The notes below the pieces were generated by a model. The model worked only from the letters and a program-made list of their open reading frames with translations. It was not told the DNA's origin and searched no databases. The position numbers and the translations under genes were made by a program. DNA of 53,442 nucleotides from Oscillospiraceae bacterium (GTDB lineage Bacteria; Bacillota; Clostridia; Oscillospirales; Oscillospiraceae). This document shows positions 17,191 to 29,511 of the stretch, piece after piece. Every line of letters starts with the position of its first letter. The stretch's first letter is position 1. The stretch lies in contig JAJPYE010000025.1 in NCBI GenBank assembly GCA_021205095.1, forward strand, positions 1-53,442, read 5' to 3'.

Positions 17191-17247
17191 ACAGATAATC
17201 TGGTTTTTAAAAACAGGTAATGCCATTTTGCATGGGAGGTTTTGCCT

Positions 17248-18082
17248 ATGAAACGCAGAATTGTGTCGGATTCCTCTGCCAATATGCTGGCGTGGAAGGG
17301 AATGGATTTTGACTCTGTTCCGCTGAAAATCATTGCGGGGGAGAGGGAGTATGTGGACGACGCCCGCCTTGATCTGACGGGAATGTTGGATTACCTGAGT
17401 GATTACAAGGGAAAATCCGGCACCTCCTGTCCCAATGTGGCGGACTGGCTGGACGCCTTTCAGGGGGCAGATGAGATTTTTGCGCTCACGATTACAAGCT
17501 CCCTGTCTGGCAGTTATGCCATGGCGGTGCAGGCGCAGGAGGAGTATAAGGAGCTGCACCCGGAAGCCAAGGTCATGGTGCTGGACACCCTGTCCACCGG
17601 GCCTGAGATGGTGCTGATTATGGAAAAAATACAGGAACTGACCGAGGCGGGGCAGAGCTTTGAGGAGACAGAGGCCGCCGTGCGGGAATACAGCCATCAT
17701 ACTCATCTGTTTTTTTGCTCTGGAATCCATGAAAAACCTGGCGAACAATGGCCGGGTCAGTCATACGGTGGCGGCTTTGGCGGGCCTTTTGAGTATTCGT
17801 GCGCTGGGCGTGGCCAGCGAGGAGGGAACCCTTCAAATGCTCCACAATGGCCGGGGCTGGAAGCGAACCTTCCGCGCGATTATAGAGGAGCTGGAAAAAT
17901 ACGGCTTCACCGGCGGAAAGCTTCGCATTGCACACTGCCAGAACCCGTCGGCGGCGGAGGAGCTGGCGGAGCAGATTACCAGGCACTTTGGAAAATGTGA
18001 CCTCTCTATCCATCCTTGCACTGCGCTGTGCAGCTTTTATGCCGAGCGGGGCGGGCTGATGGTCGGCTTTGAGGGAGCGTAA
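17248..18082 (+). pseudogene. DegV-family fatty-acid-binding protein, frameshifted
   Basis: The DegV family binds fatty acids and serves as the FakB subunit for fatty acid kinase. The ATG at 17248 follows GGGAGG. Frame 1 encodes the N-terminal half (RIVSDSSANM, the TSCPNVADW segment, ITSSLSGSY). It runs out of homology inside seven T residues at 17710-17716. The C-terminal half (FFALESMKNLANNGRVS to the end at 18082) continues in another frame. Reading six T instead of seven gives a continuous protein of about 278 residues, the normal DegV length. The rest of the sequence is well preserved, so this is a very recent mutation, phase variation or slippage, or a sequencing error. The family assignment is firm; whether the gene is functional is not. 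Confidence 0.85.
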
Positions 18083-18138: not shown

Positions 18139-18167
18139 TTGCCATTTTTGGAAAAACCGACTAAAAT
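18139..18167 (+). promoter_or_regulatory. Promoter of the DUF4430-ECF operon
   Basis: TTGCCA (18139-18144) and TAAAAT (18162-18167) have a 17-base spacer. The leader is only about 45 bases, too short for a cobalamin riboswitch. Confidence 0.65.
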
Positions 18168-18216
18168 AGAGACTGCGACGATTGGAGCCGCAAATTTTTG
18201 TAATCGGAGAGAGAAC

Positions 18217-18627
18217 ATGGAAAACAAAAAGAGTAACCAGAAAAAAACAACCCTTATCGTGCTGGCTGTCTGCATCGTGGTGGTGCTGGCCGTGGTGATC
18301 TGCTGGGCGTCCTTTGGCCCCAAGGCCCTGGAGGGCGTGAAGGACATCACCATCAACGTGGAACATTCCGACGGTACGGTAGCGACCTTCGACGTGGATA
18401 CCCAGGAGGAGTACCTGTATGCCGCCGTGGAGGACATGGGCCTCCTGGAGGGCGAGGACAGCGACTATGGTCTGTTTGTCACTGTGGTGGACGGCGAGGA
18501 GGCGGACTCCTCTGTTGGAGAGTACTGGATGTACAACTGCAACGGGGAAATGGCCCTTTATGGCGTAGAATCCCAGCCCATTGCGGACGGGGACGTATAC
18601 GACTTCTACCTCTATATATATGAGTAA
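18217..18627 (+). CDS. DUF4430 (transcobalamin C-terminal-like) membrane-anchored protein
   Basis: 136 residues. The ATG at 18217 has GGAGAG upstream. A short basic N-terminus precedes one hydrophobic segment (residues 11-32), an uncleaved anchor. The extracytoplasmic part (about 40-136) matches the DUF4430 fold, related to the C-terminal domain of transcobalamin and intrinsic factor (ITINVEHSDG, YLYAAVEDMGLL, YWMYNCNGEMA). Members of this family are inferred to bind a cofactor at the cell surface. The stop overlaps the start of an ECF S component, so I infer that it hands a ligand, possibly a corrinoid or other vitamin, to that transporter. The ligand is not established by the sequence. Confidence 0.8.
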   Translation: MENKKSNQKKTTLIVLAVCIVVVLAVVICWASFGPKALEGVKDITINVEHSDGTVATFDVDTQEEYLYAAVEDMGLLEGEDSDYGLFVTVVDGEEADSSVGEYWMYNCNGEMALYGVESQPIADGDVYDFYLYIYE

Positions 18628-19132
18628 GCTCTCCCTGCGGGAGCTTGTGCCCCTGAGCCTGATTGGGGCGTTGCTGGTGGTCAGCAAGCAGCTTATGACC
18701 TTTTTGCCGAACATCGAGCCTGTCACCATGCTGCTGATATGTACAACCATGGTATATGGGCTGAAGGCCCTTTACCCCTGCTGCATCTTCGTACTGCTCC
18801 AGGGGCTGCTGTACGGCCTGGGAATGTGGTTTATCAGCTACCTTTACATATGGCCTCTGCTGGTGCTGGCGGTATACCTGCTGCGGCGGAATACCTCCTG
18901 GATCCTCTGGACGGTGGTGGGGGCCATGTATGGGCTGTGCTTTGGGGCGCTGTGCGCCATTCCGTATTTTTTCATCGGTGGCTGGCAGATGGCTTTTGCC
19001 TATTGGATTGCGGGGATTCCCTATGACCTGCTCCACCTGGTCGGCAATGCCCTGATGTGCGGTATATTTTTAAAGCCCCTGACCGGGCTTTTGCGGCGTC
19101 TGGCCAGGGGACAGTATCCCCCAGTGCCCTGA
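18620..19132 (+). CDS. ECF transporter S component (substrate-specific membrane subunit)
   Basis: 170 residues. The start ATG lies within the last codons of the preceding gene (8-base overlap). About five or six hydrophobic segments and a short basic end are seen, typical of small ECF S components. These capture vitamins or their precursors and use a shared EcfT/EcfA module, which is not encoded in this window. Tight coupling with a DUF4430 protein suggests a common ligand. The substrate cannot be read from the sequence; a corrinoid is a guess based on the partner fold. Confidence 0.78.
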   Translation: MSKLSLRELVPLSLIGALLVVSKQLMTFLPNIEPVTMLLICTTMVYGLKALYPCCIFVLLQGLLYGLGMWFISYLYIWPLLVLAVYLLRRNTSWILWTVVGAMYGLCFGALCAIPYFFIGGWQMAFAYWIAGIPYDLLHLVGNALMCGIFLKPLTGLLRRLARGQYPPVP

Positions 19133-19154: not shown

Positions 19155-19712
19155 ATGACAGAAATCGAGGAATATAAGGCCCAGGCGGCGGAAGCGATGA
19201 AGGAGCTTGTACAGGCGGCGCGGCTGACCCCAGGCCAGATCGTGGTGGTGGGGTGCAGCACCAGCGAGGTGACAGGCCACCGTATCGGCAGCTTTTCCGC
19301 GCCGGAGATTGGTCAGGCCCTTTTTGAGGGAGTGCAGTCGGTGCTGACCCCGCTGGGGCTGTTTCTAGCCGCCCAGTGCTGCGAGCATTTGAATCGGGCC
19401 ATTGTTATTGACCGTCCCACGACAGGGTTGTCTCATCTGCCGATGGTGAACGTGGTGCCGCAGCCCAAGGCGGGGGGGAGCTTTGCAACTGCTGCCTACC
19501 ATGGATTTGAAAATCCTGTGGTTTTGGAGCATATACATGCCGATGCCGGATTGGACATTGGCGGCACGCTGATCGGGATGCACCTGCGCGAGGTGGCTGT
19601 CCCTGTGCGTCTGACCCAGAACCATATCGGCCAGGCATCCGTTCTTGCTGCGCGCGTCCGTCCCAAATTCATTGGAGGCGAACGGGCGATATATGATGAG
19701 AGAATGAAGTAA
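19155..19712 (+). CDS. YwlG/TIGR01440 family protein
   Basis: 185 residues with AGGAGG eight bases before the ATG. It matches the widely conserved Firmicutes family called YwlG or DUF436 (VVVGCSTSEVTGHRIG near residues 31-46; GGSFATAAYHGFENPVV). The molecular function is not established. It lies 22 bases after the ECF S component and probably shares its transcript, ending at the bidirectional terminator at 19750. Confidence 0.9.
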   Translation: MTEIEEYKAQAAEAMKELVQAARLTPGQIVVVGCSTSEVTGHRIGSFSAPEIGQALFEGVQSVLTPLGLFLAAQCCEHLNRAIVIDRPTTGLSHLPMVNVVPQPKAGGSFATAAYHGFENPVVLEHIHADAGLDIGGTLIGMHLREVAVPVRLTQNHIGQASVLAARVRPKFIGGERAIYDERMK

Positions 19713-19749
19713 TACGAATCAACAAGTTTGTTGGAAGGCCATTTACCAA

Positions 19750-19797
19750 AAAAAAGAGGAATTTCTGCGGTGTTTCCCACAGAAATTCCTCTTTTTT
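19750..19797. terminator. Strong bidirectional terminator
   Basis: Arms of 18 bp (AAAAAAGAGGAATTTCTG at 19750-19767 and its complement at 19780-19797) give A and T runs on both sides. It closes the YwlG operon and marks the left border of the accessory island. Confidence 0.85.
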
Positions 19798-20495
19798 GCT
19801 GTCATTCATTACTCTGGCCATTACAGCATTAATGACAGCATCTTCAATAGGAACCTTTCGGACACTCTTGCGTTTGGCAGTGCAGGTTTTATTCTTCTTG
19901 CTGTTTACACAGCGGTAATAATGGTATCTTCGCCCATTGCTGCCGCTTGTACCACACTCACCCACCATCATAGCTCTGCAAGTGCCACAGATGAGCTTAG
20001 TGGTCAGAAGATAATCGTCCTCGGCCTTGTGCCTGGCAGGGGCCTTGCTTGGATCTATTTGATAATGCCGATCTTCATCGATGATATAGCCAAATGTAGG
20101 TGTTCCTCCATTAAACTTGCATTTCAGCGCGTTTTCTGTGTGACCCCTGAGTACATTCTCCGATAGTTCGGCAGAATAGTATTCCGCCATTCCCTCCAAT
20201 AGGGATTCAAGAATGATGCCCTCCGGCCCGTCCGAGATGTTCTCTGTGGCAGACAACACCTTTACGTTGTGCTTGCGGAGCATGGCTTTGTAGTGGGCGC
20301 TGTCGTAGCAGTTTCGTGCAAATCTATCTAGTTTCCACACTACGATGACATCAAATGAACCTTTAGCGGAATCCGCTATCATACGCTGAAAATCAGGGCG
20401 ATGGTCTGTCCTGGCGGATACTGCGCGGTCGATATAGTGCCGCACGATGGTTATATCGTTTTTCTCACAGTATGCAGTACATTCGCGAAGCTGTC
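19798..20495 (-). pseudogene. Remnant of a large serine recombinase
   Basis: The minus-strand frame shows part of a resolvase catalytic domain (VVWKLDRFARN, then SLLEGMAEYYSAELSENV) and the zinc-ribbon segment (LICGTCRAMMVGECG). The N-terminal strand carrying the nucleophilic serine is missing: homology starts at about 20495 with a segment corresponding to residue 30 or later. The central recombinase domain is deleted between PSKAPARHKA and the zinc ribbon. The C-terminus runs into the terminator. The protein is therefore inactive and marks an old large-serine-recombinase element. The stretch 20496-20675 upstream holds no gene. Confidence 0.85.
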
Positions 20496-20675
20496 ACTAT
20501 TGTAGAGCATTTGATTAGGTGGCTCAAATGTTCATTGTCATTTTTGCTTTAGTGGCTCAAGTCCATTTTAGCATTCACAACTGTAATATCACAAAAGAAG
20601 ATATATGTAAATACTGTATTTATGGATGCTCCTGAAATTTTCCCTAGTCTGAGAAGCAGAAAAACAATAATTTCC

Positions 20676-20704
20676 TTGACATGGCTCCAATTGTGCGCTA
20701 TACT
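20676..20704 (+). promoter_or_regulatory. Promoter of the HgdB-type operon
   Basis: TTGACA (20676-20681) and TATACT (20699-20704) have a 17-base spacer. The strong promoter is immediately followed by palindromes that could repress it. Confidence 0.8.
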
Positions 20705-20730
20705 AACAATAGTTAGTTTTGACTGACTAA
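20702..20730 (+). promoter_or_regulatory. Overlapping palindromes, candidate metal-regulator operator
   Basis: ACTAAC-AATA-GTTAGT (20702-20717) overlaps the -10 box, and TTAGT-N8-ACTAA (20713-20730) follows, sharing bases. The TTAGTT/ACTAA half-sites resemble DtxR/IdeR-family boxes (TTAGGTTAGCCTAACCTAA), and the first gene downstream is an iron-complex-type binding protein. A TetR or MarR regulator would also fit. Confidence 0.5.
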
Positions 20731-20757
20731 TTTATTTTTAATAGAAGAGGTTTTCAT

Positions 20758-21939
20758 ATGAAGAAGCTGCTCGCACTTTTACTGGCATTGGTCATGGTGC
20801 TGTCCCTGACAGCCTGTGGTAGCTCCACTGACTCCGATGATTCCGCTGCAGAGGATGGCGAATCGGGCACGAATGAAACAATAGAGGAAACGACTGAGGT
20901 GGAATCGGAGATTTCCGCAGATGTCGAGGATGAAACTGTCTATCCTATCGAGATAGAGAGCGACTGGGGAACTGCAGTTATTGAATCTGAGGTAAATGCT
21001 ATTGCAGTTTTTGACATAGGAATGCTGGACATTTTGGACACCTTGGGCTTCGGTGACCGCGTAGTGGCTGTTACTAGCGGCCTGGCTATGCCCGACTATC
21101 TTTCCGACTATTCTGGTGACAGCTATGTTGATTTGGGTGGTTTTAAAGATTGGGATCAGGATGCACTGGCTGAGAGTAATCCCGACCTGATTCTGGCTGG
21201 CTTCCGTCAGACTAAGAGCGTTGATGTTGTAGACGCTATCGCTCCCGTTATCTATTTCGGTACTACTGATGCAGATACTGCAGAGGCTTATATGGCGTGG
21301 CTGGGGGATCGCGTAGGCGCTATCACGACCCTATTTGGCGGTGTGGATGAGGCTCAGGAGTATCTGGATCAAATTCAGGAAATGATCGACGCCATTCAGG
21401 GCTATACTGCCGAAAATGAGATCACGTTTATCAGCGTAACCTGCGAGGATGGCGGCCTGTCTATCGGCGGCAACAATTCCAGTTCCTTGTTGGGCGGTGT
21501 TTTAGGGCTGGTTTCCGCTTATGAAGAAGAGGAAGGTTCTGACCAAGGACGGGGCGGCGACACAGGCAGCGAGGCTGAGAGTGCCTCTGCAGAAGCCGCC
21601 GATGGGGAGATCCGCAGCGAGGGCCGTGTTGAGGACGAGTCCTCCTCCGATGAGCTGGAAACTGCTGATGTGACTGAACAAAATGCTACAGTTGCCAACA
21701 CAATTATCGAAACCGCGCCCACCTATGTCTTTGTATTCGATAAGGATGCCGGGGAGAATATGACAGATGTAGAGACTGCGCAGGAAGCTGTGGAATCGAC
21801 CGAGCTTGTAAACTCTGATCTCTATCAGGAAGGACGCATCGTCTACATGGACGAGGCCCTTTGGTACAGCGCTGACGGCGGCCTGACCTCCACGATCATG
21901 CAGCTCGAACAGATCATGGAGCTGCTTGGCATCTCTTGA
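20758..21939 (+). CDS. Iron-siderophore-type substrate-binding lipoprotein with acidic insertion
   Basis: 393 residues. Signal peptide with lipobox LTAC (Cys20), then an acidic Ser/Thr linker (21-60). Residues 70-240 match the YclQ/FatB-like class III (siderophore) binding-protein fold (MLDILDTLGFGDRVVAV, ESNPDLILAGFRQ, DAIAPVIYFG). After SIGGNNSSSLLGG the usual region is replaced by a long acidic, Ser/Gly/Glu-rich insertion (about 256-308). Then PTYVFVFDKD resumes the fold. It is therefore an extracytoplasmic lipoprotein that probably binds a metal chelate. No ABC permease or ATPase follows; HgdB-type redox genes do. It may deliver its ligand to the redox membrane proteins or to a permease encoded elsewhere. 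Confidence 0.82.
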   Translation: MKKLLALLLALVMVLSLTACGSSTDSDDSAAEDGESGTNETIEETTEVESEISADVEDETVYPIEIESDWGTAVIESEVNAIAVFDIGMLDILDTLGFGDRVVAVTSGLAMPDYLSDYSGDSYVDLGGFKDWDQDALAESNPDLILAGFRQTKSVDVVDAIAPVIYFGTTDADTAEAYMAWLGDRVGAITTLFGGVDEAQEYLDQIQEMIDAIQGYTAENEITFISVTCEDGGLSIGGNNSSSLLGGVLGLVSAYEEEEGSDQGRGGDTGSEAESASAEAADGEIRSEGRVEDESSSDELETADVTEQNATVANTIIETAPTYVFVFDKDAGENMTDVETAQEAVESTELVNSDLYQEGRIVYMDEALWYSADGGLTSTIMQLEQIMELLGIS

Positions 21940-21948
21940 TTGCCTGGT

Positions 21949-23160
21949 ATGTCAGCAATTGCATCAGAGCTGGAAAAAGGATTTGGAATACTCCGGGAAT
22001 GTTGTCCCATTCCCGGAGCTCTTGATTATTTCTTCTCCCTGACAGAAAAATATTTTGACCCGGAACCACGGCGGCATGAGCGGGAAGTGATGATTTTAGG
22101 CCCAAGCTTCCCGGAGGAGCTTCTGATGGCCTATCATATTTATCCTCATTGGGTTCCCGGTGGCGGACTTGCTGTGGGAGATTCCGTGGACAGTATGGTG
22201 CCGCGTGACGCGGATGCGACCTCGCGCTCCATCTTCGGATATTTGAACGCATATCAGGATAAGACCGGGAAGAAACTGCCGGTCATTGTCCCTATCACAG
22301 GAGATAATCTGCGAAAGCTGTGTTATCTTTTGGAAGAGGATGGATGGAAGGTTTATCCTCTGGATATTATGCCTTATGCATCTTCCGGCAGCCTTTATTT
22401 TTCCATCGCCACTCAATTAGATAACATTATGGATTCTCTGACTCTGCGGTGGCAGATACCGGGAACAGCCAAGGGGCTGCGGCGAGCTGCGCAGAAAACG
22501 ACTCAAGCAAAGACTGTCCTTTACAGGCTGTTTCATGATCCTGACATACATCTGAACGGTATCATAAGGCATTATTTGGCGACCACCTATTTTTATGCCG
22601 ACGATCTGACAGAATGGACAAAAGAGCTGGAATGCCTGGGAAGCACTCTTAGAACTACGAACCATTCAACGGACTCGAATCGTCCCGGCGTCTTAATTAT
22701 CGGCTCGCCTGTCCTATTCCCTAACTACAAGGTTCCGCTTTTGCTGGAAGAATGTGGGCTTGAAATAGTGGATTTTTGCAGTTGGATAACGGGAAAGACT
22801 CAGTTTGTGGAAAATATGCCTCCGCTCCCGATGTTTAGTAGGCAAAAGGCTCTTCGGCAGCTTGTCGCTGGCTCCTACAGCCAGGAAAGCTCCGGTGCAT
22901 TTGTCCAGAACCAGGGCTTGTATACCCAGGCTGTCCAGCGGCTGGAAAGGACTGATCTGTGCGGCGTTATTCTTCATATTCTTAAAGGACAAATTGAATA
23001 CGATTTTGAAGCTGACCGTCTGGAAAGTCTTTTCGCCAAGAGAAATCTTCCTGTATTTCGCCTGGAGACCGATTACCACGACAACGACGTGGAGCAGCTT
23101 CGCATTCGGCTGGAGGCTTTTTCTGAGCTTTTAAAACAAGATATGACATCCAGGACATGA
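21949..23160 (+). CDS. HgdB-superfamily protein lacking the cluster cysteines
   Basis: About 403 residues from the ATG at 21949. A TTG directly after the upstream stop is an alternative start. There is no clear ribosome binding site, so translation is probably coupled to the gene before it. It is homologous to the 2-hydroxyacyl-CoA dehydratase component B/D family and to the second HgdB gene of this operon, best at the C-terminus (LPVFRLETDYHDNDVEQLRI). At the positions where that paralogue has cysteines it has other residues: MVPRDADATS for TPRDACPLVK, VPITGDNL for VPTTCDCK, LKGQIEYD for LRGCLVYD. It therefore should not hold the Fe-S cluster in the usual way. It may be a structural partner in a heterodimer. 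This is inference from local alignment by eye. Confidence 0.8.
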   Translation: MSAIASELEKGFGILRECCPIPGALDYFFSLTEKYFDPEPRRHEREVMILGPSFPEELLMAYHIYPHWVPGGGLAVGDSVDSMVPRDADATSRSIFGYLNAYQDKTGKKLPVIVPITGDNLRKLCYLLEEDGWKVYPLDIMPYASSGSLYFSIATQLDNIMDSLTLRWQIPGTAKGLRRAAQKTTQAKTVLYRLFHDPDIHLNGIIRHYLATTYFYADDLTEWTKELECLGSTLRTTNHSTDSNRPGVLIIGSPVLFPNYKVPLLLEECGLEIVDFCSWITGKTQFVENMPPLPMFSRQKALRQLVAGSYSQESSGAFVQNQGLYTQAVQRLERTDLCGVILHILKGQIEYDFEADRLESLFAKRNLPVFRLETDYHDNDVEQLRIRLEAFSELLKQDMTSRT

Positions 23161-23164
23161 TTTT

Positions 23165-24925
23165 ATGAAGTCAATTATCAAAACGATACTAAAACATTGG
23201 AAGCTTTTGATCTTCTGCGTTCTTCTGGGAGTGTTCGCCTATTATTCCTGGAAATTCCCCTTCTATGAGTTCTCCGATGATACCACAGATTACACACTGA
23301 GCATGGTAGAGACAGACGACGGGGATTACGGCATGTACTTCACCTATGATAACACAGATTTAACCCTGGTGCTGGAGAAAGGCATCGACACAGGTGATAT
23401 TCAATTCTATGGGCTTACCACATCTGGCATTGCTGTTATGAGTGAGGAACACATAGCCAGCCTGACCGGGGATTATACAGGCAGCTTTTTGGCCGTTTCC
23501 AAGCTGCAGTATAGCGACTACAACGGCGATGGCCAGAGAGACAGGCTACATATAGCGACTCGAACCGATATGGAGATCCTGCTTAGCAATGACACAGAGG
23601 GAGAAAAATACAGTGCTGAGGCTTTCCTGCTGGATGTGGTTCTGAATTATCGCCGGGAAGTACAACTATATTATAACGATGAGCCTCTGGCCGAAACACA
23701 GGTACAGGTAACAACAGCGGATGGCAGTGTTATTAACCAGACTACGGACGAGAACGGTGTCCTGGCCGCTTTGGGGGCAAGGGATGCCTGGAAGGGCTTC
23801 ACAGTGGCCTATTCCGAAAATCAGGTTGATTTTTATATTCTGACCTATCGAGCGGAACACAATACTATTTTCACCGCACGGCATTTCGCTGCGCTGACAC
23901 CGCTGCTGCTGATTATTGCTATCTCTGCACTGGGCATCCTGTTATGCTTATTCGCCCGCTGGTATTTAGAACGCAGGGCATATGGGAAGGATTATGTTCG
24001 GCGGTGGCGTCAAAAGCGGCCCCATGGCGGCATCACTTTTTCTCTGTTTGGGTTTATTCGCTGGTGCTGTATGCTGGCAGCCTGGGTGATCATCTTTTAT
24101 GGGGCCTACATATTCGGCGTCTGGTTTGACAATATTTCCCTGCCAGTATTTGCCTGCGGACTGTACAACGAAAATCAGTTCATCAGTGGCGGCTGTTATT
24201 ATCTGGCAAACCTGGATCTTCTGTTTGGTCTCTCCCTTGGCGAAATATTAGCCTATTGCTTCTCCATGCTGGCTTCTATGGTATTGTTGGGGCGGCTGAT
24301 TTGCGGCTTTTTATGCCCGATGGGTCTTTTGCAGGATGTAATACACCAGGTGCGCCTAGGACTGAAGGTGGATGGTATCGCCGTTGACGAAAAAATATAT
24401 GATGGTCTGAAGCTGATAAAGTGGGTATTTGTTATCCTGATGCTGAGCCTCTGTTTTGCAGGGGGAAAATTTTGCGATTTTTGCCCGGTTCAAACGCTGT
24501 CGCCAGCTTTCAGCGGTTTCAAGGTCAGCTTGTATGCAGGAGCGTTCGTCATGATTGGCGTCATGATCGGAAGCTTCTTCAAACATCGGTTTTGGTGTAC
24601 CATTTGTCCCCTTGGTTTTCTGATTGGTATTACACATAAAATATCCCCCGTCCAGTTAAAGAAACAATGCGAGGCGTGCACAAGCTGCGGAGCCTGCTAT
24701 GAAGCCTGTCCTATGGGAATCAAAACTATATATACAGAGCAGGAAAAAATAAAGGTTACAGACTGGGACTGCATTTTCTGCGGTGAATGTGTTCGAAACT
24801 GTCCGGAGGATAAGGCTTTGAGTATCACGTTTTTTGGCCTGCCGATTTATACCTCATCCAGAAAAAGGCTTATGAAACGCTATAACAAGAGCGATGAGAT
24901 GGTGGAAAAGGAAGGAAAGTTATGA
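23165..24925 (+). CDS. Membrane polyferredoxin (NapH/NosR-like) with extracytoplasmic domain
   Basis: 586 residues. One N-terminal membrane segment (about 14-32) and an extracytoplasmic domain (about 35-230) with an Ig-like or carboxypeptidase-regulatory-like stretch (QVQVTTADGSVINQTTDENG). Then about five more membrane helices carrying FLCPMGLLQD and CPLGFLIG, the paired CxxxCP-like motifs of NapH/NosR/CcoG proteins. The C-terminus (about 500-550) holds two [4Fe-4S] motifs, CEACTSCGACYEACP and CIFCGECVRNCP. It should move electrons between cytosolic donors and the membrane or outer face. The stop overlaps the next HgdB gene by 4 bases (ATGA), implying stoichiometric expression with it. The N-terminal domain is unlike ordinary NapH. 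Confidence 0.85.
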   Translation: MKSIIKTILKHWKLLIFCVLLGVFAYYSWKFPFYEFSDDTTDYTLSMVETDDGDYGMYFTYDNTDLTLVLEKGIDTGDIQFYGLTTSGIAVMSEEHIASLTGDYTGSFLAVSKLQYSDYNGDGQRDRLHIATRTDMEILLSNDTEGEKYSAEAFLLDVVLNYRREVQLYYNDEPLAETQVQVTTADGSVINQTTDENGVLAALGARDAWKGFTVAYSENQVDFYILTYRAEHNTIFTARHFAALTPLLLIIAISALGILLCLFARWYLERRAYGKDYVRRWRQKRPHGGITFSLFGFIRWCCMLAAWVIIFYGAYIFGVWFDNISLPVFACGLYNENQFISGGCYYLANLDLLFGLSLGEILAYCFSMLASMVLLGRLICGFLCPMGLLQDVIHQVRLGLKVDGIAVDEKIYDGLKLIKWVFVILMLSLCFAGGKFCDFCPVQTLSPAFSGFKVSLYAGAFVMIGVMIGSFFKHRFWCTICPLGFLIGITHKISPVQLKKQCEACTSCGACYEACPMGIKTIYTEQEKIKVTDWDCIFCGECVRNCPEDKALSITFFGLPIYTSSRKRLMKRYNKSDEMVEKEGKL

Positions 24926-26232
24926 CGGTTATATCGGAGCAGGAACGCGCTATCCTGAACCGCCGGGAAGAACGTTTTTTCCGGCGATCTTCCCACACCG
25001 CAGCGCGGTATCTCCGGGATATGGAAGCTTTGCCGGGATTGCCGAACGCTATGGAACCGTTTCTGACGGCCCTTCGCCATATTTATGTCGATCACAAGGG
25101 CATTGTGACAAGCAGGCCCTGCATCGGCACGTATTGCGCAATGGTTCCACAGGAACTGATCTATGCCGCAGGGGGAATGCCGGTCAAGTTGTGTAGCGGT
25201 CATTATACTGCATTTCAGATCGGGGACGACAGCACACCACGAGACGCCTGCCCCCTGGTAAAAGCGGTGGCGGGTTTTCGTGAAATGAAAACGATGCCGA
25301 TCTATGAGAACTGCAAGTTGATGGTCGTCCCTACAACCTGTGACTGCAAGAAAAAAATGGCAGATATGCTCAGTCAGGAAGCCAACGTTCATGTGATGAA
25401 TCTTCCTCTCAATCGCATCGACGATGGCGCAATCTCCGGCTGTGTGATCGAATATCATCGGCTTATTGAAATCCTGGAAGCAGTAACGAATCAGTCAGTT
25501 ACATGGAGCCGCCTGTATGACAGCATTCAAATGGTGGGAGTCTCCCAGCAGGAGTTGTCGCGTTTTCTGGAATTTAAACGGCAGGATCGAGCGCTGATAT
25601 ACGGCACTCATGTCATGGCCATGATGAATGCCGCCTCCTATATGTCATTGGAACAATGGACAGCTCACCTTCGGACTCTGAACGATGAACTCTCGGAACG
25701 ACAGGAAAAAGGTGAATATGTAGCAAAAGCAAACCGGCCTCGCATCATGCTGACAGGATCGCCCATAATCTTTCCCAACATAAAGCTGCCGCTTCTCATT
25801 GAACAGATGGGCGGGGTTTTGGCAGCAGATGAGACCTGCATGGGTGAGCGTTTTATGTATGACCCGGTGGTTCCTGTAGATATGAGCTTTAACGGATTGC
25901 TCCGGGCGTTGGCCAATCGGTATGTGCGGGCCTGCACCTGCCCGGTGTTTTCGGAGAATCGACAACGAATAAACCGCGTTCTTCATATGGTGCATGAGTA
26001 TAAAATACAGGGCGTTATCTATCATGTGCTGCGCGGCTGCCTGGTCTATGATTATGAGTTCTCACTGCTGGAGCAGGCGCTGGAAAAGGAAAATATTCCC
26101 GTCATCCGTGTGGAAAGCGATTACAATGAAGAGGATGTGGAGCAGCTTCGCATCCGCATTGAGGCATTTATTGAGCTTATAAAGCTAAAGGAGCTTAAGG
26201 AAAAAGGGATAAGGAGCATTCATGACGAGTAA
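24922..26232 (+). CDS. HgdB/double-cubane-type Fe-S reductase subunit (cysteine-rich)
   Basis: 436 residues of the 2-hydroxyacyl-CoA dehydratase component family (HgdB, BcrB/BcrC, double-cubane cluster proteins). Family-typical cysteines are Cys72 in GTYCAMVPQELIYAAGGMP, Cys110 in TPRDACPLV and Cys140/142 in TTCDCKKKM. Further candidates are Cys306, Cys338/340 (ACTCPV) and Cys373 (RGCLVYDYE); the C-terminus has the usual IPVIRVESDYN and LRIRIEAF. Having both N- and C-terminal cysteine sets resembles double-cubane proteins more than classical HgdB. There is no CoA-transferase or acyl-CoA gene nearby, so the substrate need not be an acyl-CoA. The partner activase follows and overlaps by 11 bases. 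Confidence 0.85.
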   Translation: MTVISEQERAILNRREERFFRRSSHTAARYLRDMEALPGLPNAMEPFLTALRHIYVDHKGIVTSRPCIGTYCAMVPQELIYAAGGMPVKLCSGHYTAFQIGDDSTPRDACPLVKAVAGFREMKTMPIYENCKLMVVPTTCDCKKKMADMLSQEANVHVMNLPLNRIDDGAISGCVIEYHRLIEILEAVTNQSVTWSRLYDSIQMVGVSQQELSRFLEFKRQDRALIYGTHVMAMMNAASYMSLEQWTAHLRTLNDELSERQEKGEYVAKANRPRIMLTGSPIIFPNIKLPLLIEQMGGVLAADETCMGERFMYDPVVPVDMSFNGLLRALANRYVRACTCPVFSENRQRINRVLHMVHEYKIQGVIYHVLRGCLVYDYEFSLLEQALEKENIPVIRVESDYNEEDVEQLRIRIEAFIELIKLKELKEKGIRSIHDE

Positions 26233-27016
26233 ATATTATGCGGGCATTGACGGCGGCTCTACTTACATAAAAGCCGCGCTTATCCAGGGCGATAGGGTTG
26301 CAGGAACCAAGGTTGCAGGCGCAGGCATCGACAATAGCGGCGCTGCGGAAAAGCTTTTGCAGGCGCTGTGCCAGGAACAGGGCATCAGCAGGGAGTCCAT
26401 TGCCTATACCATCGCCACAGGATACAGCCGTAAGATCATGGACGTAGCGGATGACGACATTTCTGAAATCACTGCCCACGCCTTTGGCGTTCGTCTGACT
26501 GCCCCGGAGGGTTATCGTCCCGGCCTGATTATCGACATCGGCGGTCAGGACAGCAAAATCATTTATCTGGATGAAAACTATGCCGTAAAAAACTTTACCA
26601 TGAATGACAAATGTGCCGCCGGGACGGGGAAATTTATGGAGGTCATCGCTCAGATTTTGGACACGACTATTGATCAGGTGGGAGAGCTTGCTATGCAAAG
26701 CACCGCTCCCTGCGACATCAACAGTACCTGTGTTGTGTTTGCCCAGTCGGAGGTCATTTCTCTCATTGCCCGGAAATTTGACCGCAGCGATATTTTAGCC
26801 GGGGTACATGCGTCTATCGCCAAACGTATTATTAAAATGATACGCCGCAGTGAGAAAAACGGCGATATTCTGATGACTGGTGGGGGAGCGATGAACATTG
26901 GCATTCGAGCCGCCTTCGAGGAGGAATTGATGCGAGATGTCTATGTAGCTAACTATCCGCAGTTCAACGGTGCTATCGGCGCAGCCGTAATTGCCAGGGA
27001 GCGAGATAATGCTTAG
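26222..27016 (+). CDS. HgdC/BadF-type activase ATPase
   Basis: 264 residues, with a start inside the preceding gene. It belongs to the ASKHA ATPases that activate 2-hydroxyacyl-CoA dehydratases: the phosphate-1 loop GIDGGSTYIKAAL, the IDIGGQDSKI loop, and the two cysteines that hold one [4Fe-4S] at the homodimer interface (NDKCAAGTGKF and NSTCVVFAQSE). It uses ATP to push one electron at very low potential into its HgdB partner. Its presence shows that the operon performs ATP-driven reduction. The electron donor is probably a ferredoxin; the membrane polyferredoxin could be a donor or acceptor. Confidence 0.93.
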   Translation: MTSKYYAGIDGGSTYIKAALIQGDRVAGTKVAGAGIDNSGAAEKLLQALCQEQGISRESIAYTIATGYSRKIMDVADDDISEITAHAFGVRLTAPEGYRPGLIIDIGGQDSKIIYLDENYAVKNFTMNDKCAAGTGKFMEVIAQILDTTIDQVGELAMQSTAPCDINSTCVVFAQSEVISLIARKFDRSDILAGVHASIAKRIIKMIRRSEKNGDILMTGGGAMNIGIRAAFEEELMRDVYVANYPQFNGAIGAAVIARERDNA

Positions 27017-27680
27017 CCAGCTTTTTCAGGTCATTCTCTCCGCTGTGTCCATGGGCAGTACATGCAGCCTCTGCGGCGCGTCTGCCAGTTCTGCCTTCCT
27101 GTCCTCTTATATTATTACCCATGAGCGCATTGCCGCACCATGTGTGTGCTTTCTGACAGGAAAAGCCTGCATGACCATGCTGCTATGCGGCCTGTCTTCC
27201 GCTTTGGGTAGAGTTATCATAGATAGTGTTGGCAAGGCCTCTGATTTGAATATCTACCTGACAGCTCAGATTTTTGTCCTTGTCGTATGCGTTATTATGA
27301 TTGCCAGGTGGATACACAGTGCATGGGAGGGCCGACGTCCCTGCACCGGCAACTGCGCTCATAACCAGATCCAGCGGGAGCCATCCGGCGCAGTGGCGCT
27401 TCTATTCAGTGGCATAGCCTGTGGAGCGACCCCCTGCACGCCGCTTCTGCTAGTGCTTGGTCAATGCGTGGCATTGTCCCTTCCTCTTTCTTTAATTTCC
27501 GGAGCCGTATTTGCTGTTACAGGCTTTCTATCCCCCGTAATATTCTGGCTCGTAATCTCCAGGATACTGGCAGGCAAATTACGTCAGGATGTGGCGCAGT
27601 ACCTGAGATGGTTTCAACTGGGATGCTATGTCCTGCTTATGCTGGTTACAGTTTATACGATCGTTGTCTATATATGCTGA
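27009..27680 (+). CDS. CcdA/DsbD- or TauE-like membrane protein
   Basis: 223 residues from the ATG at 27009, 8 bases inside the activase gene. About six hydrophobic helices arranged as two halves, with paired cysteines (STCSLCGAS near residue 20 and GIACGATPCTPLLL near residue 140). A proline-cysteine motif repeated in each half is typical of CcdA/DsbD-type proteins that pass reducing equivalents across the membrane; sulfite exporter/TauE-like proteins are the main alternative. A cysteine-rich cytosolic loop (CTGNCAH) lies between the halves. In this operon it could carry thiol-based electrons to the extracytoplasmic side. Confidence 0.65.
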   Translation: MLSQLFQVILSAVSMGSTCSLCGASASSAFLSSYIITHERIAAPCVCFLTGKACMTMLLCGLSSALGRVIIDSVGKASDLNIYLTAQIFVLVVCVIMIARWIHSAWEGRRPCTGNCAHNQIQREPSGAVALLFSGIACGATPCTPLLLVLGQCVALSLPLSLISGAVFAVTGFLSPVIFWLVISRILAGKLRQDVAQYLRWFQLGCYVLLMLVTVYTIVVYIC

Positions 27681-27696
27681 AGGAGACTCAAAATAT

Positions 27697-28146
27697 ATGG
27701 AATATTCTGCAAAATATCCTAAGCTCATATCGGAAGAACAGAAGGATGCAAACGTAAAAAAGACTGTTCTTCGTCTGTTTTCAGGTATCACGCTGGCAGT
27801 CTGCATCGCCTATGGCAGCGGTGTCGTCATTTCGAGCCATATCAAGGCCATGAATACAGAGGAAGCAGAAACTCCGCGTTTGGTCATCCTCGGCAAGGAG
27901 GATGAGGAAACAGTAGCAATCATTGCGGAGGAAATATCTCATGATGACGGAAGCGTTATGTCACTGGAGGATTTTTTAAGCAAATTGATTTGCGGTGCTT
28001 GTAGCCGCCGGTGTCCTTTACTTTCCCCACGATGCACGCGGGGAAAATCCAAGGCCGAAACTCAAACTGCCTATTATGAGCAGGCGGTTGATCTTCTGTC
28101 TGGTGAAGGAGATGGCATATCCTATAATGATCTAAGCTTTGAATAA
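27697..28146 (+). CDS. Small membrane-anchored protein with a cysteine cluster
   Basis: 149 residues with AAGGAGA about 10 bases before the ATG. One hydrophobic segment (about residues 27-48) separates a short cytosolic N-terminus from an acidic outer part. That part ends in a motif with cysteines in CGACSRRCPLLSPRC (about 103-117). I recognise no family. Four cysteines in that spacing could bind a metal or Fe-S cluster or act as a thiol relay. As the last gene of the redox operon it is a plausible acceptor for electrons from the CcdA-like neighbour, which is inference. Confidence 0.7.
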   Translation: MEYSAKYPKLISEEQKDANVKKTVLRLFSGITLAVCIAYGSGVVISSHIKAMNTEEAETPRLVILGKEDEETVAIIAEEISHDDGSVMSLEDFLSKLICGACSRRCPLLSPRCTRGKSKAETQTAYYEQAVDLLSGEGDGISYNDLSFE

Positions 28147-28626: not shown

Positions 28627-28911
28627 GTGTCCCAGGTTACAAGCTACCTTTCCACCATGGCCAGGCAGGGCCGGGCATTTGGAATACACCTTGTCCTGGC
28701 GACGCAGCGGCCTGACGCGACCATCATACCGGGTCAGATTCGCAACAACATAGACTTTAGGATTTGTGGCAGGGCAGATGACGTGTTGTCCCAGATTATC
28801 CTGGACTCCACTGATGCCGCTGACCAGATACCCAAGGCCGCAAGAGGCCGCTTCATCACCGGCGATGGTACTGTGTTTCAAGCCTACATCTTCGATGAAG
28901 ATGACCTGTAA
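28627..28911 (+). pseudogene. C-terminal fragment of an FtsK/SpoIIIE-like ICE coupling protein
   Basis: About 94 residues matching the end of the FtsK motor domain of conjugative elements (MARQGRAFGIHLVLATQRPD, then IPGQIRNNIDFRICGRADD and GRFITGDG). The Walker motifs and everything N-terminal to them are absent, so it cannot pump DNA. It marks the remains of a conjugative element at the right side of the redox operon. Confidence 0.85.
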
Positions 28912-29250: not shown

Positions 29251-29325
29251 TGGTGACCCGTACGGGACTCGAACCCATGTTACCGCCGTGAAAGGGCGGT
29301 GTCTTAACCACTTGACCAACGGGCC
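29251..29325 (-). tRNA. tRNA-Glu (anticodon TTC)
   Basis: 75 bases including an encoded CCA. The acceptor stem GGCCCGT pairs with ACGGGTC. The anticodon stem CCGCC/GGCGG holds the loop CTTTCAC, giving anticodon TTC. Last gene of a three-tRNA operon. Confidence 0.95.
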
Positions 29326-29331
29326 GAAATG

Positions 29332-29408
29332 TGGTGGAGACTGCGCGACTCGAACGCGCGACCTCATGCGTGTGAAGCATGCGCTCTAACCTGCTGAGCT
29401 AAGCCTCC
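29332..29408 (-). tRNA. tRNA-Val (anticodon CAC)
   Basis: 77 bases with encoded CCA. Acceptor GGAGGCT pairs with AGTCTCC. Anticodon stem CATGC/GCATG with loop TTCACAC gives anticodon CAC. Confidence 0.95.
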
Positions 29409-29434
29409 ACATCGGGGGCATGGCCCCCGGAATC

Positions 29435-29511
29435 TGGTAGCGGCGACTGGATTCGAACCGGTGACACCGCGGGTATGAACCGCGTGCTCTAGCCAACTGA
29501 GCTACGCCGCC
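29435..29511 (-). tRNA. tRNA-Met (anticodon CAT)
   Basis: 77 bases with encoded CCA. Anticodon stem CGCGG/CCGCG with loop TTCATAC. The body resembles elongator tRNA-Met of Firmicutes. An Ile2 identity (modified CAT) is possible but less likely. Confidence 0.9.

Follow-up and report, generated by a model that had tools for sequence, protein, structure and literature searches.

The window analysed here is the whole 53,442-nucleotide contig JAJPYE010000025.1 of an Oscillospiraceae bacterium (contig C46 of genome G000, an assembly of 66 contigs that is 97% complete). Between positions 20758 and 28146 it carries an operon of seven open reading frames, all on the plus strand, in which adjacent frames overlap or lie 0–16 nt apart. 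Upstream is a sigma-70-like promoter, TTGACA-17-TATACT (20676..20704, plus strand), recognised by consensus match only, which agrees at 11 of 12 positions and scores best among the 16 promoter-like sites of the region. The earlier note on this DNA had described seven near-touching genes on one strand behind one strong promoter, and that description is borne out. Its family assignments also hold in the Pfam and NCBIfam libraries, with which protein families were assigned here, save for the equality of what it called an HgdB pair. We propose, at about even odds (roughly 0.5), that the product of the operon is an ATP-powered transmembrane reductase serving iron acquisition.

The first gene, P0001 (20758..21939), encodes a siderophore-type substrate-binding lipoprotein with an acidic insertion (Peripla_BP_2, 40 bits), whose nearest solved relative is YclQ (3gfv), followed by siderophore and enterochelin binders. 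Its stop codon abuts the TTG start of P0002 (21940..23160), an HgdB-like subunit (HGD-D, 97 bits) for which an alternative ATG start is possible 9 nt further on. P0003 (23165..24925) is a membrane polyferredoxin with Fer4_5 and dicluster ferredoxin matches and NapH as its closest model. It is followed by P0004 (24922..26232), a double-cubane-type HGD-D protein resembling the double-cubane cluster protein (DCCP), and by P0005 (26222..27016), an ATP-dependent activase of the HgdC/DCCR type. The last two genes encode a CcdA/DsbD_2-like membrane protein, P0006 (27009..27680), and a small signal-anchored membrane protein with a C-terminal CxxC-x3-C-x6-C domain, P0007 (27697..28146).

P0004 and P0005 are relatives of the DCCP/DCCR pair known from Carboxydothermus and from E. 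coli (YjiM). P0004 scores 298 bits on HGD-D and 333.6 bits on the double-cubane model NF040772, slightly under its cut-off of 350, and far less on the HadC or Bcr/Bzd models. Its nearest solved structures are 7yyl and 6eno; its cysteines fall at places corresponding to those of 7yyl, a double-cubane cluster protein, and ten cysteine columns are conserved across 71 sequences. P0005 exceeds the cut-offs of both CoA_E_activ (231 bits) and TIGR00241 (230.6 bits against 125.4). By analogy, an activase–DCCP type pair can deliver electrons of very low potential: the related benzoyl-CoA reductase requires less than −600 mV for its second and third electrons (PMC11971306).

The two HgdB-like genes form an unequal pair. 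Two HGD-D genes are indeed present, as the earlier note said, but it missed that the first, P0002, lacks cluster cysteines: no alignment column is cysteine in at least half of 87 family sequences. This clusterless subunit constitutes a protein family without an entry of its own in the libraries used. DCCP itself is soluble and homodimeric, and its biological role is described as unknown (PMC11971306). Here, by contrast, an additional, clusterless HGD-D subunit lies in the same operon along with membrane electron carriers, and these partners are kept in 41 of 42 loci. Class I benzoyl-CoA reductases and 2-hydroxyacyl-CoA dehydratases (BzdNO, HadBC) are likewise heterodimers of HGD-D subunits, one of which has lost clusters, and are served by an ATP-dependent activase. 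They differ in that their second subunit keeps a three-cysteine catalytic [4Fe-4S] cluster, whereas the 87 P0002-type sequences have no conserved cysteine column, one subunit here is without ligands altogether, and CoA chemistry is not indicated. A fermentative acyl-CoA dehydratase or arene reductase, which the HGD-D and activase families by themselves would allow, is accordingly a very improbable identity for the operon: P0004 prefers the double-cubane model, its partner is without catalytic cluster ligands, and in a survey of neighbours (256 candidate genes at 73 loci, 193 after dereplication, 127 of them scanned) no CoA-transferase or acyl-CoA family appears among the 25 commonest of 132 families. 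The consistent acyl-CoA neighbours that the earlier note had named as grounds for abandoning its proposal were not seen among these 25. G000 also holds a second HGD-D/activase locus of different gene content on another contig (L025, contig C36, 10841–13812).

The search for genes of the P0002 type covered the family (200 genomes), the order (394 genomes) and the class (391 genomes). Such genes are uncommon: profile matches above 350 bits occur in three of the order genomes and four of the class genomes, G000 included. Among 84,980 species genomes, 148 stretches encode a P0002 relative, and the counts given below for relatives rest on the best 80 of these. Homologues of P0003, P0004, P0005 and P0006 lie within 9 kb in 41 of the 42 loci that have at least 6.5 kb of downstream sequence; in the exception, L097, other genes follow, a recombinase gene among them. 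A P0007 homologue is also present in 20 of these 42 testable loci; over all 80 loci, 34 have one close to the cassette. The recurrence of the gene set is more than chance. As the loci were found with a P0002 query, the count describes the companions of P0002 and gives no frequency of such partners for DCCP proteins; DCCP-like genes also occur in the absence of P0002 (L029, L030). The hosts include gut and rumen Lachnospiraceae, Ruminococcus (R. albus among them), several Acetobacterium and two genome bins (L128, L154) that we take to be of termite gut origin. Cultured hosts exist, given the presence of the cassette in Lachnospiraceae, Ruminococcus and Acetobacterium.

The polyferredoxin is the part that could carry electrons across the membrane. 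P0003 consists of an anchor, an extracytoplasmic domain (approximately residues 44–230), five more transmembrane helices and a C-terminal 2x[4Fe-4S] domain. It aligns with E. coli NapH over the transmembrane helices with their CxxxCP motifs and the C-terminal dicluster ferredoxin, and scores 72.5 bits on the NapH model TIGR02163, below the cut-off of 213. Predicted topology places one cysteine quartet on the inner side of the membrane (380, 384, 478, 481) and a second on the outer side (331, 344, 437, 440). The outer quartet, which E. coli NapH lacks, is kept in 76 of 78 type A polyferredoxins and is a predicted extracytoplasmic metal or Fe-S site. NapH-type polyferredoxins, including the flavinylated NapH-like proteins (PMC8238504), share the NapH core, the inner CxxxCP motifs, the two ferredoxin clusters and often an extracytoplasmic N-terminal domain. 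In P0003 that domain matches the DUF4198/Zcp beta-sandwich fold instead of a flavin mononucleotide domain, and an ATP-driven reductase is co-encoded. Among proteins of comparable kind, CcoG is reportedly a cupric reductase. DUF4198 is also a component of the PepSY/DUF2271/DUF4198 ferric-reduction systems (VciB; Caulobacter CCNA_03155–03159), which share iron control and a proposed extracytoplasmic reduction of iron(III). These systems are flavin-linked and have no HGD-D protein or activase, and no ATP input is described for them.

The two remaining membrane proteins have the cysteines of possible redox carriers. P0006 scores 19.8 bits on DsbD_2, below the cut-off of 24.9, yet of 24 homologues 16 match that family at E ≤ 0.001, P0006 itself among them; it is a divergent DsbD_2 protein. 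The family has a conserved CxxC close to the start and further cysteines in later segments (19, 22, 60, 112, 116 and 143 in P0006), a pattern as expected of a thiol electron carrier. The C-terminal part of P0007 has four cysteines invariant in 38 sequences. When 24 members were compared with Pfam and NCBIfam, weak scattered matches were obtained (best E 0.0048 and 0.0023, respectively), with no family matched by more than six of the 24, and this surface domain too represents a protein family without a name in those libraries. In eight Firmicutes stretches without the cassette (L215–L222), the P0007 domain forms the C-terminal part of longer membrane proteins, twice in L215; three of the eight proteins were scanned, and all three match DUF4405 over its cut-off. 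Its place at the end of these longer membrane proteins suggests that the domain is a surface redox module.

A link to iron comes from the promoter. Directly 3′ of the −10 box lies a palindrome, GTTAGTTTTGACTGAC (20712..20727, plus strand), with one mismatch to the DtxR/IdeR-type operator GTTAGTNNNNACTAAC. The five closest relatives (L081–L085, 63–64% identical in P0002) carry a perfect palindrome, GTTAGT-N4-ACTAAC, at the promoter. Allowing at most one mismatch, the palindrome occurs at two places in the whole of G000, the window promoter and a site upstream of feoA-feoB (L167), and the backward control pattern at one. Dinucleotide shuffles of 20658–20757 yield a one-mismatch site in 5 of 20000 cases. 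Each of the L081–L085 genomes has one one-mismatch place before feoA-feoA-feoB (L169, L176, L177, L178, L179); FeoB was confirmed on all five contigs, and in L176–L179 the site is divergent from a gene taken as DtxR-type by reading. In G095 the sole palindrome place is upstream of feo. The feo promoter of G000 also carries TTAGG-AATA-CCTAA, whose half site is that described for IdeR (PMC10317159), and the genome encodes one DtxR-family regulator over the cut-off. Among 74 promoters (those of 73 loci and the window's), the palindrome, with at most one mismatch, is found only in the window and L082–L085; L081 also has it and was left out of this count, as its gene starts less than 150 bp from the contig end. 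The site in the window has the characteristics of a DtxR/IdeR-type operator common to feo genes and confined to the clade with the lipoprotein. Two DtxR-type palindromes also precede a gene group in another genome (L175, G929:C37), whose members presumably resemble DUF2325, DUF3793 and flavodoxin and may form another iron-starvation operon.

Iron transport genes adjoin the cassette in some relatives. Two related metagenome-assembled genomes (L020 and L021, records of L089 and L101) have a P0007-type gene divergent from the cassette and, behind it, a gene for a FeoA-FeoB fusion; L020 was scanned with Pfam, and the L021 cassette is spread over two contigs. The genes directly upstream of the cassette in L154 are feoB and those for a small secreted protein, a DUF4198 protein and a secreted protein of 732 aa. 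Homologues that are 65–72% identical occur in L128, where three other called genes separate feoB from the rest. The secreted protein (721–732 aa in L128/L154) was considered as a binding protein from the look of its N-terminus, and Pfam, run on the L154 protein only, does not confirm this. The Gram-negative Sulfurovum mangrovi has a simpler relative consisting of a TauE/SafE-DsbD_2 protein, a 4Fe-4S protein whose match to DUF4198 falls below cut-off, a polyferredoxin that has the outer quartet, a single DCCP and an activase. Genes annotated as TonB-dependent receptors flank it, the downstream one for siderophore transport.

These elements can be arranged into a path from the cytoplasm to the cell surface. 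P0005 would take electrons from ferredoxin and use ATP to push them into P0004, as in DCCP/DCCR and benzoyl-CoA reductase. The P0002–P0004 heterodimer would hand the electrons on rather than to a bound substrate, with the heterodimer probably docking to a membrane partner. They could then pass through the cytoplasmic clusters of P0003 to the predicted outer site at Cys 331/344/437/440 and, outside, to iron(III) in a siderophore bound by P0001, with the DUF4198-fold domain perhaps assisting, together with P0006 and P0007 as a thiol or metal relay. The iron(II) freed would be imported by FeoB, whose genes carry an operator of the same type. The potentials of iron(III)–siderophore couples lie between −350 and −750 mV, out of range for NAD(P)H (PMC9727729), and a very low potential would be useful for that reason. 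It is the combination of this range with the low-potential pair and a lipoprotein resembling siderophore binders that leads us to propose outward ATP-driven transfer to a siderophore complex and uptake by FeoB. A bolder generalisation, plausible though short of even odds, is that the operon represents a new bioenergetic machine, an ATP-driven transmembrane electron pump working at about −700 mV through a double-cubane protein and an Fe-S wire to the cell surface, with ferric catecholate siderophores first among substrates beyond reductases based on NAD(P)H, quinol or flavin. Such a machine would also provide double-cubane proteins with a first physiological function.

A number of observations weigh against iron acquisition as the role of the cassette at large. 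Most relatives carry neither lipoprotein nor iron operator, and feo queries match only four of 80 loci. Allowing one mismatch, the palindrome occurs at 31 places in seven genomes and the control at 30, with the control commoner in G930, G933 and G095, so that the case for the operator depends on the location of the sites and not on their abundance; several other palindrome places in the genomes searched have no evident iron link. Outside the lipoprotein clade none of 69 promoters has the palindrome with at most one mismatch, compared with one control stretch in 370. Fur-like boxes with three mismatches occur in 6 of 74 promoters and 17 of 370 controls, without clear enrichment. Together these counts rule out iron boxes as a feature of all cassettes. 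A binding-protein gene adjoins the cassette, directly upstream, only in the window and L081–L085 (five of 80 relatives), and is not a general cassette part; other P0001 matches near cassettes appeared at a permissive E-value and were judged to be due to signal peptides. The outer domain is missing from 42 of 78 polyferredoxins, judged by length. P0007 is not specific to the cassette either: its domain is strongly matched in eight genomes besides G000 among 398 searched (weaker matches resemble low-complexity sequence), and the 16–18 kb around each of these eight genes contain no cassette. The earlier note had inferred ATP-driven reduction at an extracytoplasmic metal complex. The fold of the outer domain, the outer quartet, the operator shared with feo, the feoB genes near some cassettes and the TonB receptors in Sulfurovum lend this independent support, but lipoprotein and operator are scarce among relatives, and the note's reading as a whole is upheld in part.

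The metal itself could be another one. Ni, Zn, Co or Cu is bound in the structures of DUF4198 and Zcp proteins, and the solved DUF4198 protein prefers Ni (PMC12537917), which would suit the same transmembrane reductase acting to reduce or release a nickel, cobalt or corrinoid complex. The Feo neighbours and the DtxR-type operator also present at feo genes make this quite unlikely, and no cobalamin or nickel genes were noticed among the neighbours read, although these were not searched by family for such genes. The suggestion of the earlier note that a corrinoid or heme is the substrate gained no support. The fold is shared with the outer domain of P0003, but the conserved histidine ligands of the solved relatives are not: in 31 sequences of the outer domain no histidine is found among invariant or nearly invariant columns, a further point against the main proposal.

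The lipoprotein might instead serve ordinary siderophore uptake, feeding a separate ATP-binding cassette (ABC) permease while the DCCP pair frees iron inside the cell. Cytoplasmic reduction is a usual route for siderophores, P0001 belongs to the same lipoprotein family as YclQ and CeuE of siderophore ABC importers, and G000 has one FecCD permease gene, on another contig, that the lipoprotein could serve. This counts against outward reduction, yet we find the account improbable. Unlike those importers, the seven operon genes include no permease or ABC ATPase, the 9118 bp around the FecCD gene contain no TTAG-N6-CTAA palindrome, and the polyferredoxin with its outer quartet, P0006 and P0007 would be left without an evident role.

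A more serious competitor, still unlikely in our judgement, is a cytoplasmic small-molecule reductase. The substrate of P0002 and P0004 would then be a nitrogen oxide or a small stress compound, and the polyferredoxin would serve only as a source of electrons, drawn from quinol or from outside. The characterised DCCP reduces acetylene, hydrazine and azide (PMC11971306). A second form of the cassette, type B (L077–L080 and, in part, L022), consists of an HGD-D protein without the usual cysteines, a small membrane protein, a short NapH without the outer quartet, a DCCP and an activase, with no P0006 or P0007 homologue. It lies beside genes for Crp-type regulators, and hcp is a few kb away in four of five loci (both named by reading). 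These features, which speak against a general role in iron acquisition, suggest that the older role of the cassette core may have been cytoplasmic. Around most relatives of the window's type other genes are found, commonly those for LysR regulators, two-component systems and flavodoxins; many Lachnospiraceae cassettes, again to the detriment of the iron proposal, combine LysR regulators with flavodoxin or aldo-keto reductase genes. In part of L086–L160 a LysR regulator is divergent from the cassette (20 family members at position −1 on the opposite strand), with a flavodoxin, an aldo-keto reductase and a small conserved protein of 75–109 aa nearby. What favours the transmembrane reductase over such an enzyme is the outer quartet retained in nearly all type A polyferredoxins, the extracytoplasmic parts P0001, P0006 and P0007 in the operon, and the resemblance of the window's operator to that of feoAB.

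No description of this gene set was found in the open-licence PMC literature, where one search mainly returned an unrelated cyanobacterial HgdB/HgdC. The parts belong to known families and, as far as we can see, their coupling is new. Nitrogenase and the cytoplasmic enzymes of the benzoyl-CoA reductase family are known examples of ATP-driven reduction at ultra-low potential. If the proposed transmembrane reductase is real, it would be new in sending electrons of such low potential to the outside, and it would account for the way in which anaerobes could obtain iron reductively from very tight siderophores. The question of what double-cubane proteins do would also become directly testable.

A serine recombinase gene (19669–20445) and an FtsK-like fragment (28627–28911), both named by reading, flank the operon, and its G+C content is 0.45–0.52 compared with 0.51–0.66 around it. 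A metagenome-assembled genome of the same genus (L023) has a cassette 94–98% identical to the window's. These features are consistent with horizontal transfer; a search of plasmids for the whole operon at high identity gave no match. Further upstream lie what we take to be a DegV-like gene, apparently split into two frames (17242–18082), and, within 18139–19132, a DUF4430 lipoprotein gene followed by a gene resembling the S component of an energy-coupling factor transporter, a name we assume for a protein without a Pfam match. Downstream of the operon, three tRNA genes are found at 29251–29511.

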